In this document: positions 5,523 through 10,473 of the stretch, in pieces | How the letters are laid out: every line of letters begins with the position of its first letter | Position numbering within the stretch: position 1 is the stretch's first letter | Assembly (NCBI RefSeq): GCF_024158035.1 | Contig: NZ_JAMZEK010000001.1 | Coordinates: 372,001-436,000, forward strand | Reading direction: 5' to 3' | DNA from: Dyella lutea | GTDB lineage: Bacteria > Pseudomonadota > Gammaproteobacteria > Xanthomonadales > Rhodanobacteraceae | DNA: 64,000 bases | Made by a program: the position numbers and the translations under genes | The notes under the pieces: model-generated | The model's input: only the letters and a program-made list of their open reading frames with translations | Told to the model about the DNA's origin: nothing | Databases searched by the model: none

Positions 5523-7526
5523 ATGGCACTACCTCACAACCTCTGGTTGCCCGCGCTGCTGGGCGCGCTCGCCACCCTGCACGCCTATCTCGCGCTGGAC
5601 ACGATCCCGCGAGTGGCTGCCGCGCGCGGTGCGGTGGCCATGTTGTGGCTGGGGTTCGGCGCGGCGGTGCTGGCGGTCGGTGTGTGGACCACGCAGTACC
5701 TCGGCCACGCCGGGACCTCCGGCCTGGGCGGCGCGCGTGCGGCCGTGGCCGGCGGCATCGCCTGGGCGAGCGCCGTGCTGGCGCTGTGCCAGGCCGCACG
5801 GGGACGCGCCTGGCTCGCCGGCATTCTGCTCGGCACGGGCCTGGTGCTCGCCACCACCTTCGACCAGCGGCTGGACCGCCCGGGCATGGCCAGTTGCCTC
5901 GCGTGCATGCTGCTGCTCGGCGCTGGCGGCGCGATGGCCGCGCTGGCCTGGCGCGAGCGGCGGCCCCCGGCGCCGCGGGTGTGGAGCGCCGCGGTGCTGC
6001 TCGGTCTGACCATCGCAGCGCTGCCGGTCGCCGGTAACGCCCTCGCGCCCGACGCGGCGATGCGCCCTCCGGCACAGGTGCCCGGCGCCGCGGCATTCGT
6101 GATCTCCGCGCTGGTACTGCTGCTGGCCGCAGTGGTGCAGCTCGCGCAGCGCGAGCTGGCGCGGCAGGCGGCGCAGATCCGCGGCGAACTGGAGTCGGCG
6201 CGCCAGGCGCTGGTGCACCAGGCCTTCCACGATGCGCTCACCGCCCTGCCCAACCGCGCCAAGGTGCTCGCGCAGTTGCAGGAGCTGCTGCCGGAGGCGC
6301 GACGCGACGGGCAGGACGTGGCGGTGATGTTCATCGACCTGGACGGCTTCAAGTCGATCAACGACACCCTCGGCCACGAGGCCGGCGACGAGTTCCTGCG
6401 CCGCGTCGCCGAGGCGCTGAGCGCCAGCGTGCGCCCGCGCGACACGGTGGCCCGCTTCGGCGGCGACGAGTTCGTGGTGGTGCTGGAACGGTTCCGCAAC
6501 CGCGAGAACCTCGGCGCGATCTGCGAGAAGATCCTCGCCCGCGTCGGCGCCCCGGTGCTGGTGGCCGGGCAGAAGGTGACCGCTACGCCCAGCATCGGCG
6601 TGGCGGTGTTCCCCGACGATGGCGCCGAGCCCACCGAACTGCTGCGCCACGCCGACATCGCCATGTACGCCGCCAAGGAGCGGGGCAAGGCCGGCTTTTG
6701 CTTCTACGAACCGCAGATGATCGCCCGCGCCAGCGAGCGGCTGGCGCTGTCCACCGACCTGCGCGAGGGTCTGGGCCGCGACGAGCTGCGCGTGTGCTAC
6801 CAGCCGAAGGTGGACCTGCGCTCGCGTCGGCTGGTCGGGCTGGAGGCGCTGGCGCGCTGGGCGCATCCGACCCGCGGGCACCTGCCGCCGTCGATGTTCA
6901 TCCCGCTGGCCGAGGACTGCGGCCTGATCGCCCGTCTCGGCGAACGCGTGGTGCGCGAGGTGGCCGGGCAGATCGCGCGCTGGCGCGCCGAGGGCCTGCC
7001 GCTGGTGCCGGTGGCGATCAACCTGTCGATGCAGGAGATCCAGGGCGTCAACTTCGTGCCGTCGCTGCTGCGCACGCTTGCCGAGGCCGGACTGGACCGC
7101 CACGCGATCGAGTTCGAGATCACCGAGACCGCGGCGATGACCGACGTACACACCACGCTGCGCCACCTGCGCGAACTGGAAGCGCTCGGCTTCCGCATCG
7201 CCATCGACGACTTCGGCACCGGCTTCTCCAGCCTCAGCCACCTGCGCCAGCTGCCGGCGCGCACGATCAAGATCGACCAGTCGTTCGTGCACGGCGCAGA
7301 CGCCTCGCACCACGACCGCGAGATCACCGAGGCGATCATCGCGCTGGCCCGCAAGCTGCGCCTGCACACCGTGGCCGAGGGCGTGGAGAGCGAACAGCAG
7401 GCGCGCTGGCTGGTGCAGGCCGGCTGCGACATCGGCCAGGGCTATCTGTTCGGACGGCCGCTGCCGCCGGGCGAGACGGCGACCCTGCTGGCCGCGGGGT
7501 TCGCCGGCGCGCCGATCGACGCCTGA
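5523..7526 (+). CDS. Membrane-bound GGDEF-EAL bifunctional c-di-GMP protein
   Basis: 667 residues. About seven hydrophobic segments fill residues 1-215, a short coiled coil follows, then a GGDEF domain (residues ~230-390) and an EAL domain (~405-655). The cyclase site GGDEF is intact at about 313-317, with the inhibitory RxxD (RPRD) at 304-307. The EAL domain has the EAL motif at 441-443, AINLS, EITE, DDFGTG, IKID, AEGVE and QGYLFGRPLPP, so the phosphodiesterase metal and catalytic residues are all present. It may therefore make or break c-di-GMP. The membrane part resembles an MHYT sensor with the MHY replaced (VGVWTTQYLGHAG). Monocistronic. Confidence 0.92.
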   Translation: MALPHNLWLPALLGALATLHAYLALDTIPRVAAARGAVAMLWLGFGAAVLAVGVWTTQYLGHAGTSGLGGARAAVAGGIAWASAVLALCQAARGRAWLAGILLGTGLVLATTFDQRLDRPGMASCLACMLLLGAGGAMAALAWRERRPPAPRVWSAAVLLGLTIAALPVAGNALAPDAAMRPPAQVPGAAAFVISALVLLLAAVVQLAQRELARQAAQIRGELESARQALVHQAFHDALTALPNRAKVLAQLQELLPEARRDGQDVAVMFIDLDGFKSINDTLGHEAGDEFLRRVAEALSASVRPRDTVARFGGDEFVVVLERFRNRENLGAICEKILARVGAPVLVAGQKVTATPSIGVAVFPDDGAEPTELLRHADIAMYAAKERGKAGFCFYEPQMIARASERLALSTDLREGLGRDELRVCYQPKVDLRSRRLVGLEALARWAHPTRGHLPPSMFIPLAEDCGLIARLGERVVREVAGQIARWRAEGLPLVPVAINLSMQEIQGVNFVPSLLRTLAEAGLDRHAIEFEITETAAMTDVHTTLRHLRELEALGFRIAIDDFGTGFSSLSHLRQLPARTIKIDQSFVHGADASHHDREITEAIIALARKLRLHTVAEGVESEQQARWLVQAGCDIGQGYLFGRPLPPGETATLLAAGFAGAPIDA

Positions 7527-7532
7527 GCCGGC

Positions 7533-9017
7533 TCAGCGGCCGATGCCCAGCCGCTTGTGCTCCAGCCGGCGCAGGAACTCCTGCATGATCCGGCGATACA
7601 GGTCCTCGCCGAGGTAGACGTCCTCGACGCCGGCGTCGATCGACGGGTTGTCGTTCACCTCGATCACCACCGGCTTGCCGTTGACCTGCTTCAGGTCCAC
7701 GCCATACAGGCCGTCACCGACCGCGTGGGTGGCCTTGAGCGCCAGCTTCAGGACGTCCGACGGCACGTCGCGCACCGGGATCGTCTCGAACCCGCCTGAC
7801 TTGGCGGTGCCCTTCGCGCCGTGGTTGTAGATCTGCCAGTGGCCGCGCGACATGTAGTACTTGCACGCGTACAGCGGCTCGCGGTTGAGCACGCCGATGC
7901 GCCAGTCGAACTCGGTGTAGAGGAACTCCTGCGCCAGCAGCAGCGCGCTGTGCTGGAACAGCTCGCCGGCGGCCTTCTCCAGCGCCGCGGCGTCCTCCAC
8001 CTTCACCACGCCGCGCGAGAACGAGCCGTCCGGGATCTTCAGCACGATCGGGAAGCCGAGCTTCTCGCCGATCTCCTTCAGTCCCTTGGTGTTCTCGCGG
8101 TAGAGGATCTCCGTGCGCGGCACCGCCAGTTTGCGCGAGACCATCAGGTCGTTGAGGAAGATCTTGTTCGTGCAGCGCAGGATCGAGGCGGGGTCGTCGA
8201 TCACCACCATGCCCTCCTTCTCCGCGCGGTGGGCGAAGCGGTAGGTGTGGTTGTCGCTGGCGGTGGTCTCGCGGATGAACAGGCCGTCGTACTCGGCCAG
8301 GCGCTGGTAGTCGTTCTTGCCGATCGGATCGACCTCGATGCCGAGCTCCTTGCCGGCCTCGACGAAGGACTTCAGCGCCTTCTTGTTCGACGGCGGCATC
8401 GCCTCGTTCGGATCGACCAGCATGGCGATGTCGTAGCGGTAGCGCTTGCGCGCCCGCGGCTTGCGCCAGAGCTTCTTGGAGAAGCGGTCCAGCTCGGCGG
8501 CAAAGGCGTCTTCCTGGGCGTCGTCCAGCGTGTGCAGGCCGACCGGCTTGATCGAGGCGACCTGCCACACGCGCTCGCGCTCGAACTCGATCCGCAGCAG
8601 CGGGCAGGGGAACATCTCGAACACCTGGCGCGACAGATCCTGCAGCGCGGGGTAGGCAGTCTCGCCGAAGTACACCAGGATGCCGAAGTCGGTGGTGTCG
8701 CGACCGCCGGCCGGCAGGAAGTGGGTGAGCTTGCTGTTGAGGTCGTCGATGTCCAGGCCGTACAGCGAGCGCCGGCGCAGGTCGTTGATGGTGCGCACCG
8801 AGGGCATCACGCGGTGCCCGCGCGCCTCGGCCAGCAGCGACACGTAGTAGCCGGTGCCCAGGTACTTGTAGCTGCGGCACAGGTTGATGACGTGGGTGCG
8901 CTCGTCGTCGGTGCCGATCGGCTCGCGCAGGTAGTCCATCGCGCTGACCACGTCCACCGACGGGTAGTACGAGCCCCAGTCCGAGGCTTTCTCCACAACG
9001 ATGACCAGGCGGGTCAT
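7533..9017 (-). CDS. RimK-like ATP-grasp ligase with N-terminal RLAN-type domain
   Basis: 494 residues from the ATG at 9017; upstream codons read as non-coding. The first ~200 residues fit the domain found N-terminal to some RimK-like ATP-grasp enzymes (MTRLVIVVEKASDW, INLCRSYKYLGTGYYVS, LYGLDIDDLN). The second half is the ATP-grasp core: FIRETT, NKIFLNDLMVSRKLAVPRT, FPIVLKIPDGSFSRGVVKV, DWRIGVLN, and the metal-binding VVIEVNDNPSIDAGVED. Known ATP-grasp ligases of this kind form amide bonds between carboxylates and amines, as in adding Glu to ribosomal protein S6, but the substrate here is unknown. It is divergent from the GNAT gene at 9229, a recurrent partnership for this subfamily. Confidence 0.88.
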   Translation of the reverse strand: MTRLVIVVEKASDWGSYYPSVDVVSAMDYLREPIGTDDERTHVINLCRSYKYLGTGYYVSLLAEARGHRVMPSVRTINDLRRRSLYGLDIDDLNSKLTHFLPAGGRDTTDFGILVYFGETAYPALQDLSRQVFEMFPCPLLRIEFERERVWQVASIKPVGLHTLDDAQEDAFAAELDRFSKKLWRKPRARKRYRYDIAMLVDPNEAMPPSNKKALKSFVEAGKELGIEVDPIGKNDYQRLAEYDGLFIRETTASDNHTYRFAHRAEKEGMVVIDDPASILRCTNKIFLNDLMVSRKLAVPRTEILYRENTKGLKEIGEKLGFPIVLKIPDGSFSRGVVKVEDAAALEKAAGELFQHSALLLAQEFLYTEFDWRIGVLNREPLYACKYYMSRGHWQIYNHGAKGTAKSGGFETIPVRDVPSDVLKLALKATHAVGDGLYGVDLKQVNGKPVVIEVNDNPSIDAGVEDVYLGEDLYRRIMQEFLRRLEHKRLGIGR

Positions 9018-9228
9018 GACACCTCGAGAACACGCGTGAGAGGGAGGCCCCGTCGCAGGCCGTGAGCGGGCGGCGCGGCACAAGGCGCGCAGTTTGGCAT
9101 AGCGCCGCGGGCGTACAAACCGGTCCACTGAAGGACGACTAAACCGCCTGTGGCCAAGCCAGCCGGACCGGTGCAGCGCAAGCGTCGCTGCACTAAAGTG
9201 CCGCGCTCGTCACGGCTGCCCCACACCC
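9018..9228. promoter_or_regulatory. Divergent intergenic region between RimK-like and GNAT genes
   Basis: 211 bp between two outward-facing start codons. It must hold both promoters and leaders, but I cannot assign convincing -35/-10 pairs on either strand. No short open frame with a good ribosome site that would look like a peptide substrate was found here. Confidence 0.4.
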
Positions 9229-9786
9229 GTGGCGCGAACCTTCGCGCTTTCCCTGTCTGGATCGACCGCCCTGAACAGAGCTACCCGCCCCGCCCATGAC
9301 GCCGCGCCTGCGCCCGCCACCGCTGACGTGCGCGTGCGACGCGCCGAGCTGTCCGACCTGGACGACCTGGTGGCACTGGAAGACGCCACCTTCGACAGCG
9401 ACCGCATGAGCCGGGTGCAGTATCGCCGCCACCTGGACAGCGGAAGCGCCAGCATACTGGTGGCCAGTGCCAACCATCGGCGCTTCCTCGGCACGGCCGT
9501 GGTGTTCTTCCGCAAGGGCAGCCGGGTCGCTCGACTGTATTCGCTGGCCAGCCGGCCCGAGGCGCGCGGCAAGGGGGTCGGATCGGCGCTGCTGGCGGCA
9601 GCCGAGCGCACTGCACGCCAGCGCGGCTGCACCGAACTGCGGCTGGAAGTGCGTACCGACAACGCCAGCGCGATCCGCCTGTACGAGCGACTCGGCTACC
9701 AGCGCTTCGCCCGCATCGATGGCTACTACGAGGACGGCGCGGACGCCTGGCGCTACGCGCGGCCGCTGGACGCGGCGACGCGCTGA
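9229..9786 (+). CDS. GNAT-family N-acetyltransferase (RimI-like), partner of RimK-like enzyme
   Basis: 185 residues from a GTG at 9229; the start is uncertain, since the conserved domain begins only at about residue 34 (VRVRRAELSDLDDLVALE), near another GTG at 9328. GNAT motifs: the acetyl-CoA loop RPEARGKGVGSALL, RLEVRTDNASAIRLYERLGY and a final GYYEDGADAWRY. The sequence pattern, including FDSDRMSRVQYRRHL, fits the N-terminal half of proteins described as GNAT/peptidase C39 fusions, but no peptidase half follows here: the gene ends right after the acetyltransferase. It probably acetylates an amine on a small molecule or peptide handled by the divergent ligase. Confidence 0.85.
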   Translation: MARTFALSLSGSTALNRATRPAHDAAPAPATADVRVRRAELSDLDDLVALEDATFDSDRMSRVQYRRHLDSGSASILVASANHRRFLGTAVVFFRKGSRVARLYSLASRPEARGKGVGSALLAAAERTARQRGCTELRLEVRTDNASAIRLYERLGYQRFARIDGYYEDGADAWRYARPLDAATR

Positions 9787-10473
9787 CTAGCGCAGCAGTT
9801 CCTGCATCCGCTGTGCGGTCGCGTCGTCCGGACGAGCCACCAGCGCGCCGGTGCGCATCATGGACACCTCGTAGTGGCCCCGGTCGACCAGCGGCAGGAA
9901 CGCGCCGCTGCCGAACACGGCATCCACTTCGGGTAGCCAGCCGGGCAGCTCCTTGCGCAGGGTCAGCAGGTCGAAGCCACCGGAGGGAGCGAAGTCGATT
10001 ACCGTACGCGGCGCCTCCTGCTCCTGGCGGGCATCGTCATAGCGACCGTCGATGCGGTCGAGCCGGTATACCGGCGGGGCGCCGGCGAGCAGCGCCGGCA
10101 GCTTCCACTTCAGCACGATCGCCTCGACCCGGAAGGCATCGCCGGCCACCTCGACCACCCGCGAGCTGCCGTCCGGCCAGGTCAGGGTGAGCGCCCAGCG
10201 CTGGGGCGACAGGATGCGTGCGTCGACCGCCACCACCGGCACTTCGGCGACCAGCTTGCGGTAACCCCGCAAGCTCCATCCCAGCGTGAACGAGCCCAGT
10301 GCCAGCACCAGCCAGGCCAGAGTCAGCACGAGCGCCAGCGAGGCACGCAGGTGCCGCCGGTCTCGCCAGTGACGACGGCCACCCGCGGCAGCGGTCAACG
10401 CCAACAGCAGCAGCGCGGCGGCGACCACGAACAGCAGGGTGGCAGGCAGAGCGAGCAGATGCTCCCAGTTCAC
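9787..10473 (-). CDS. Inner-membrane protein of unknown function
   Basis: 228 residues from a GTG at 10473 with GGAGTG seven bases upstream. Two N-terminal membrane segments (residues ~8-30 and ~44-67) are followed by a soluble domain of about 150 residues, probably periplasmic, with VAEVPVVAVDARILSPQRWAL, a WPDGSSRVVEVAGDAFRVEA strand and VYRLDRIDGRY. I do not recognise a family; related proteins in Xanthomonadales are, from memory, called efflux-pump-like without evidence. It converges tail-to-tail with the GNAT gene, with no gap, and diverges from the Sel1-repeat gene. Confidence 0.72.
   Translation of the reverse strand: MNWEHLLALPATLLFVVAAALLLLALTAAAGGRRHWRDRRHLRASLALVLTLAWLVLALGSFTLGWSLRGYRKLVAEVPVVAVDARILSPQRWALTLTWPDGSSRVVEVAGDAFRVEAIVLKWKLPALLAGAPPVYRLDRIDGRYDDARQEQEAPRTVIDFAPSGGFDLLTLRKELPGWLPEVDAVFGSGAFLPLVDRGHYEVSMMRTGALVARPDDATAQRMQELLR

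Follow-up and report, generated by a model that had tools for sequence, protein, structure and literature searches.

What does a RimK-type ligase with an extra N-terminal domain do beside a divergently transcribed acetyltransferase, and do the two genes form one unit? The question is raised by a 64,000-nucleotide stretch of the Dyella lutea genome, which we refer to as the window. The sequence-only reading had proposed a RimK-like ATP-grasp ligase with an extra N-terminal domain, and a divergent GNAT gene 211 bp away; the open reading frames and Pfam scores bear this out. The features on which the analysis is based are:

7533-9017, minus strand: RLAN plus RimK-type ATP-grasp ligase, 494 aa (open reading frame; PF14401 173 bits, PF08443 35 bits)
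8460-9017, minus strand: RLAN, residues 1-186, read as a lid-less, dead ATP-grasp copy (AF2 model, Foldseek, secondary-structure register)
7536-8453, minus strand: catalytic ATP-grasp half, residues 189-494 (Foldseek; invariant K285, K327, D441, E453, N455)
9018-9228, no strand: divergent intergenic region, 211 bp (MAFFT of 21 family intergenic regions)
9229-9786, plus strand: GNAT resembling N-terminal acetyltransferases, 185 aa, conserved part about 9313-9786 (PF00583, 73 bits)

The ligase starts at the ATG at 9017-9015, with a ribosome-binding site (GAGGTG, 9025-9020) just 5' of it. A longer version with a GTG start, reaching to 9128, is unlikely because in 60 of 60 other loci the alignment to the ATG version begins within its first five residues. 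The start of the GNAT (a GTG) is uncertain: with a query that starts at 9304, five other genomes give strong matches whose first aligned query residue is 4-9. The ligase belongs to both Pfam families by score (173.4 bits for RLAN, PF14401, with a cut-off of 25; 35.1 bits for RimK, PF08443, with a cut-off of 21). Five residues of the second half (K285, K327, D441, E453, and N455), which we take to be the catalytic ATP-grasp residues, are invariant in alignments of 40 and of 48 ligases.

The structural relatives of the ligase indicate what kind of chemistry to expect. In Foldseek, the top matches of the full-length model (pLDDT 80.8, weaker in RLAN) are RimK, Ddl, ArgX, and LysX, all of which form amide bonds. 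The best NCBIfam scores are 80.8 bits for LysX_arch and 80.7 bits for rimK_fam, both under cut-off, and no NCBIfam model exceeds its cut-off among the matches listed. The catalytic half is close to that of RimK, the S6 glutamate ligase (TM-score about 0.75-0.82 by target length), but the window's ligase carries the additional RLAN domain, falls short of the rimK_fam cut-off of 143.4 bits, and reaches only 30.2 with PRK10446, for which the cut-off is 331. Similarly, the LysW-dependent amino acid ligases LysX and ArgX have a close fold and supply the best-scoring model, but the LysX_arch score is far under that model's cut-off of 275.6 bits. S6 glutamylation would be an unlikely job for this ligase, since another RimK-family gene is present elsewhere in the same genome, over cut-off at 275.8 bits.

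The RLAN domain is an odd part of the protein. Modeled alone with AF2 (pLDDT 83), it finds ATP-grasp enzymes as its best PDB matches by Foldseek, namely ArgX (4e-5), PsnB (8.5e-4), and LysX (1.4e-3), with RimK at 0.02 and weaker. Query TM-scores are about 0.47-0.59 for the first ten matches, and the rmsd is 9-13 A over 270-310 columns, which is what a large internal gap would give. In a viral structure library no Foldseek match reaches 0.001 (the best is 1.3e-3), and several of the named matches there are ATP-grasp proteins. Apart from the central lid, which it lacks, RLAN has its secondary-structure elements in the same order as the catalytic half. In windows picked after the element lists had been seen, RLAN 53-82 fits the catalytic half at offset 202 in 30 of 30 positions (the best of 276 offsets), and for RLAN 120-185 the best of 240 offsets is 298, with 53 of 66 positions fitting. 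At offsets 297 and 298, the positions of E453 and N455, presumably metal-binding residues in the ligase, correspond to I/S and P/K in RLAN, so that RLAN would be catalytically dead.

We also sought proof of descent from ATP-grasp in the RLAN sequence, and three kinds of comparison do not confirm it. Aligned to its own catalytic half by hhalign, RLAN gives a probability of 2.5 and no significant kinship, and a profile search of PDB sequences finds weak, unrelated proteins only (best E 0.041). A profile register scan places the expected registers at rank 1 (167/469, 20-residue windows) and rank 2 (55/257, 23-residue windows), but 55/257 drops to rank 69 and rank 56 with 20- and 26-residue windows. 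On fold comparison, it is likely but unproven that RLAN is a catalytically dead, lid-less copy of the ATP-grasp half.

The partner gene looks like an enzyme that acts on amines at the ends of polypeptides. The eight top PDB sequence matches of the GNAT are SSO0209 or chains named as N-alpha or N-terminal acetyltransferases, and the segment GYYEDGADAWRYARPL aligns with GYYADGEDAYLMARPL of SSO0209. Near the C-terminus lies an aromatic-aromatic-x-D motif ([YF]Y-x-D), which 143 of the 146 partner GNATs retain. This motif marks N-terminal acetyltransferases, and RimI shares its two tyrosines. The likeness to the RimI/Ard1/Naa30 enzymes includes the C-terminal region, which reads YY-x-DG-x-DA in the alignment of the window's GNAT with SSO0209. 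The gene differs from RimI in scoring under the cut-off of the rimI model (75.0 versus 86.4 bits), and the genome has another RimI elsewhere that is over it (128.4 bits). An HMM built from 16 partner GNATs that occur as fusions gives the window's GNAT 170.5 bits versus 52.4 for the genome's own RimI. These scores, together with the other RimI, argue that the GNAT is a separate acetyltransferase, of the fused-GNAT family. Its substrate is probably a peptide-like amine. In two genomes of one genus (G043 and G083), a TGA falls inside the aligned stretch of the GNAT match, and may be the end of the gene.

A GNAT and an ATP-grasp enzyme also meet in the making of an osmolyte, the N-acetylated glutamine dipeptide amide NAGGN, in a pathway that has an asparagine-synthase-like partner. 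The model for NAGGN synthetase (TIGR03103) is the third-best NCBIfam match of the GNAT, at 41.2 bits. However, this is far under its cut-off of 569 bits, and the model is absent among the 25 of 35 matches listed for the ligase. TIGR03103 is one model of 547 positions, whereas the window has two genes, and the ligase adds the RLAN domain and has its best matches in another ATP-grasp lineage. We consider a NAGGN-like pathway very unlikely.

Are the two genes kept together? Within the Rhodanobacteraceae, 145 of 147 genomes, representing all 26 genera sampled, contain exactly one RLAN match each (D. lutea included), and 14 control genomes contain none. In one of the two exceptions (G099) the ligase is cut by a contig end; the other (G056) has neither ligase nor GNAT, and may have an assembly gap there. 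We do not count G056 as co-loss of the pair, given that one assembly gap could delete neighbors jointly. Presence throughout the order is ruled out by five listed genomes of its other family (G156, G293, G415, G546, and G564), in which no RLAN was found; it is family-wide. A divergent GNAT lies beside the ligase at every one of 20 additional family loci, which were taken one per genus from the 144 other family genomes with an RLAN match and searched by tblastn. The pair remains intact at two of these loci (L038 and L041) where the other nine neighbors from the window are absent from the 14-kb stretch, and at a third (L042) only h228 and dapF remain of those neighbors, 3-6 kb off.

The ligase is also highly conserved in sequence. 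Its closest named relatives, from Frateuria, Fulvimonas, and Dyella, are 88-92% identical, and the median identity to 19 loci of other genera is 83.2%. Over the same range of genera, medians are 60.5% for the GNAT (19 loci), 62.2% for dapF (17 loci), 72.7% for xerC (16 loci), and 69.7% for aroE (14 loci). The ligase exceeds dapF in 17 of 17, xerC in 16 of 16, and aroE in 14 of 14 pairs compared, and the GNAT in every pair. A gene that is present as a single copy in nearly all family genomes searched, and that is conserved above dapF, xerC, and aroE, likely matters to the cell.

Conserved blocks at about 9090-9101 and 9191-9206 in the intergenic alignment may mark two predicted promoters. A GGDEF-EAL gene (5523-7526) converges on the ligase with a 6-bp gap. 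We considered a parallel with rimA, the EAL-GGDEF gene of the Pseudomonas rim operon (PMC12239564), and reject a functional link, as the gene is found at 1 of 19 other-genus loci, plus a same-genus locus (L032) and a named locus (L092). A conserved small peptide gene, which the sequence-only reading suggested looking for, was not found beside the pair in the stretches scanned at 21 family loci. The widest-matched small ORF, with matches at 10 other loci, is antisense to the gene at 9787-10473; the lesser matches were traced in part. This bears on the idea that the pair belongs to a graspetide or other RiPP system with an unrecognized precursor: although the combination of ATP-grasp, C39, and peptide chemistry is RiPP-like, and the RLAN model matches the macrocyclase PsnB, the scan yielded no conserved small ORF beyond the antisense one, and we regard such a system as highly improbable.

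Outside the family, an RLAN match occurs in 42 of the 184 genomes searched from the class and in 60 of the 299 from the phylum (both counts include D. lutea). We read the loci of 40 of the 41 other class matches (G280, with a partial RLAN, was left out), of 20 of the 60 phylum genomes, and of 80 of 589 genome-contig relatives (named contigs, same-family relatives among them). A set of 141 loci, the window included, was classified with HMMs made from the family and class loci and run on six-frame stretches; 135 could be judged, after omission of six cut by contig edges (L091, L147, L148, L151, L163, and L168), and it should be noted that the named contigs and other genomes counted may share species. 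A GNAT adjoins the ligase in 122 of the 135, alone in 59 and with DUF3335 in 63. Nine have a stand-alone C39_2 protein in place of the GNAT, eight of these with GCS2 and FGase genes as well, and four (L073, L088, L117, and L161) have neither GNAT nor C39. The expected link of this ligase subgroup to GNAT and C39 proteins is supported. The 20 phylum loci fetched all have a GNAT (6 alone, 13 with DUF3335, and 1 with both forms), and together with the 122 of 135 and the 20 family loci this answers the earlier concern that the two genes might be placed at random in relatives: their placement is nonrandom. At one locus (L197) the ligase is flanked by a stand-alone GNAT upstream and by a GNAT-DUF3335 gene on the opposite side.

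The C39-like half, DUF3335, is missing from the window's system, as had been noted from the sequence. DUF3335 has no match in the D. lutea genome and none over cut-off in 58 family genomes, where the one weak match scores 20.5 bits. In a ligase tree covering 102 of the 170 loci (quick method, SH-aLRT support), the window's clade of 21 rows is a single group (support 99*), nested in a larger group of 61 rows (99*); of the 40 rows there that lie outside the clade, 31 carry GNAT-DUF3335. The window's clade joins most closely with a mainly Pseudomonas group plus L150 (support 83). Outside the window's clade, the 12 GNAT-alone rows require 11 changes, at least 7 of them on starred branches, and this label is scattered, with no clustering beyond that of shuffled labels (a count as low arose in 192 of 500 shuffles). 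Two Pseudomonas loci (L135 and L139) keep the GNAT and lack a DUF3335 match also when the threshold is loosened, in a search for broken remnants that covered these two and six GNAT-alone phylum loci. The C39 half comes and goes while the ligase and GNAT stay. Given a GNAT in 122 of 135 loci, and DUF3335 missing in the family and in scattered lineages, ligase plus GNAT looks like the core unit. From the nesting in the tree, the direction of change in the Rhodanobacteraceae would be loss of the C39 half.

How much of this is new? Neighborhoods of RimK, GNAT, and C39 proteins were reportedly described by Iyer and colleagues in 2009, as a prediction. The window's pair has the same ligase architecture, with a GNAT of the same family adjacent; the difference is that its GNAT stands alone and divergent, in a family with no DUF3335 over cut-off. 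Fusion of DUF3335 to GNAT domains is stated to be frequent in PMC10318531, which cites Iyer et al. 2009. The suggestion of an undescribed pathway therefore holds in one respect and fails in another: the neighborhood and the fusion are on record, and no experiment that assigns a function to RLAN or DUF3335 proteins was found in the literature searched, which covered few subscription papers. The pair is a variant of a neighborhood already predicted, and what we add is the likeness of the GNAT to N-terminal acetyltransferases and the reading of RLAN as a probable dead ATP-grasp copy.

Relatives on viral contigs show the pair in its smallest form. Nine loci in IMG/VR encode relatives of the ligase, and in four of the nine (L176-L179) a GNAT lies directly upstream of a RimK-type ligase that lacks RLAN, with the two HMM matches 3-26 bp apart and ORFs that adjoin or overlap. 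The GNAT-ligase cassettes on these contigs are:

L176, 4496-5900
L177, 4555-5864
L178, 4493-5858
L179, 4591-5849

An integrase (L177) and a tail fiber gene (L176) lie near the cassettes. Could ligase and GNAT nonetheless have separate, unrelated jobs and be linked by nothing more than a common divergent promoter region? At 59 of 60 loci the ligase ORF is 484-512 aa long, too short to contain a GNAT fusion, and the ligase of the C39_2 group manages with no GNAT nearby (9 of 135 loci), both in keeping with such independence. However, the pair persists where the other nine neighbors are gone, it occurs in both divergent and co-directional arrangements across loci, and it recurs in the RLAN-less viral cassettes. 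We consider independent jobs improbable.

Which substrates might a single unit act on? Hints come from lineages with other partners. In eight of the 141 loci (L064, L066, L071, L072, L077, L079, L084, and L090), the RLAN ligase sits in an operon with C39_2, GCS2, and FGase (N-formylglutamate amidohydrolase family) genes and no GNAT nearby. DUF2817 occurs near the ligase in 16 of the 141 loci (L052, L083, L143, L152-L158, L160, L163, L165, L166, L170, and L171), in 15 of them with GNAT-DUF3335, L163 being cut at a contig edge; M14 occurs in 3 of 141. ArgE is a neighbor in 7 of 141, and these may be ordinary arginine genes. In the D. lutea genome, two FGase genes and two GCS2 genes lie well away from the ligase locus; a search for DUF2817, made without a positive control, gave no match in this genome.

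The explanation we favor, tentatively and at somewhat less than an even chance, is that the two genes are one unit, which would form amide bonds on an amino acid or short peptide and add an acetyl cap. The ligase would spend ATP on activating a carboxylate, most likely that of an amino acid or short peptide, and would then attach an amino acid to it; the GNAT would acetylate a free alpha-amine of the ligase's substrate or product. RLAN, as a dead and lid-less copy, would probably offer the acceptor a docking or pseudo-dimer surface. The product would probably be a small N-acetylated peptide-like metabolite and not a RiPP; in other lineages it may be trimmed or recycled by a papain-like C39 hydrolase (DUF3335) that is joined to the GNAT, and by metal-dependent amidohydrolases (DUF2817, M14, or FGase). 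The intact ATP-grasp motif, the amide-forming fold relatives, the Naa30/Ard1-type GNAT, the kept pairing, the hydrolase and GCS2 genes near the ligase in other lineages, and the RLAN-less viral pairs all speak for this explanation. Against it stand the negative sequence comparisons of RLAN with ATP-grasp and the high rmsd of its fold match, the four loci with neither GNAT nor C39 and the nine with C39_2 instead of GNAT, and the RimK/LysX/ArgX-like folds and the conservation of the ligase above its neighbors, which would also suit a protein target. For other ATP-grasp families, PMC4431377 proposes that a GNAT may cap the ligated peptide.

The protein target deserves separate attention. Here the ligase would extend the tail of one conserved cellular protein with amino acids, in the manner of RimK on S6, the GNAT would acetylate the N-terminus of that protein, and RLAN would bind it. 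RimK, LysX, and ArgX, the nearest folds, act on protein tails or carriers, the GNAT resembles protein N-terminal acetyltransferases, and a ligase that exceeds dapF, xerC, and aroE in identity in every pair is as expected with a conserved macromolecular partner. However, the genome's other RimK-family ligase and its RimI are both over cut-off, so these two enzymes probably take care of the known ribosomal targets, and the GCS2 and FGase partners point to small molecules. Modification of a protein is possible, though we think it rather unlikely.

What this work leaves is a candidate unit of no more than two genes with a testable chemistry, amide ligation plus amine acetylation. The odd RLAN domain would gain an explanation, and tractable hosts and the minimal version on viral contigs provide a route into the enzymology. 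More speculatively, and with considerable doubt, the pair may represent a nearly universal core pathway of the family, common to many other Pseudomonadota, that yields an N-acetylated peptide or tail, with RLAN docking the acceptor; phages carrying the bare GNAT and ligase may supply or subvert the product. Among the other viral-contig relatives, L172 (4977-5909; L173 is a near-copy) encodes an ATP-grasp ligase that is 47% identical to the window's catalytic half; terminase and portal genes flank it, and no GNAT match is present. L180 has a partial RLAN match (61.6 bits). Named phages give weak matches only (at most 57 bits). Plasmid relatives number 25 records, 11 of which cover most of the ligase protein, with a best identity of 57.7%.
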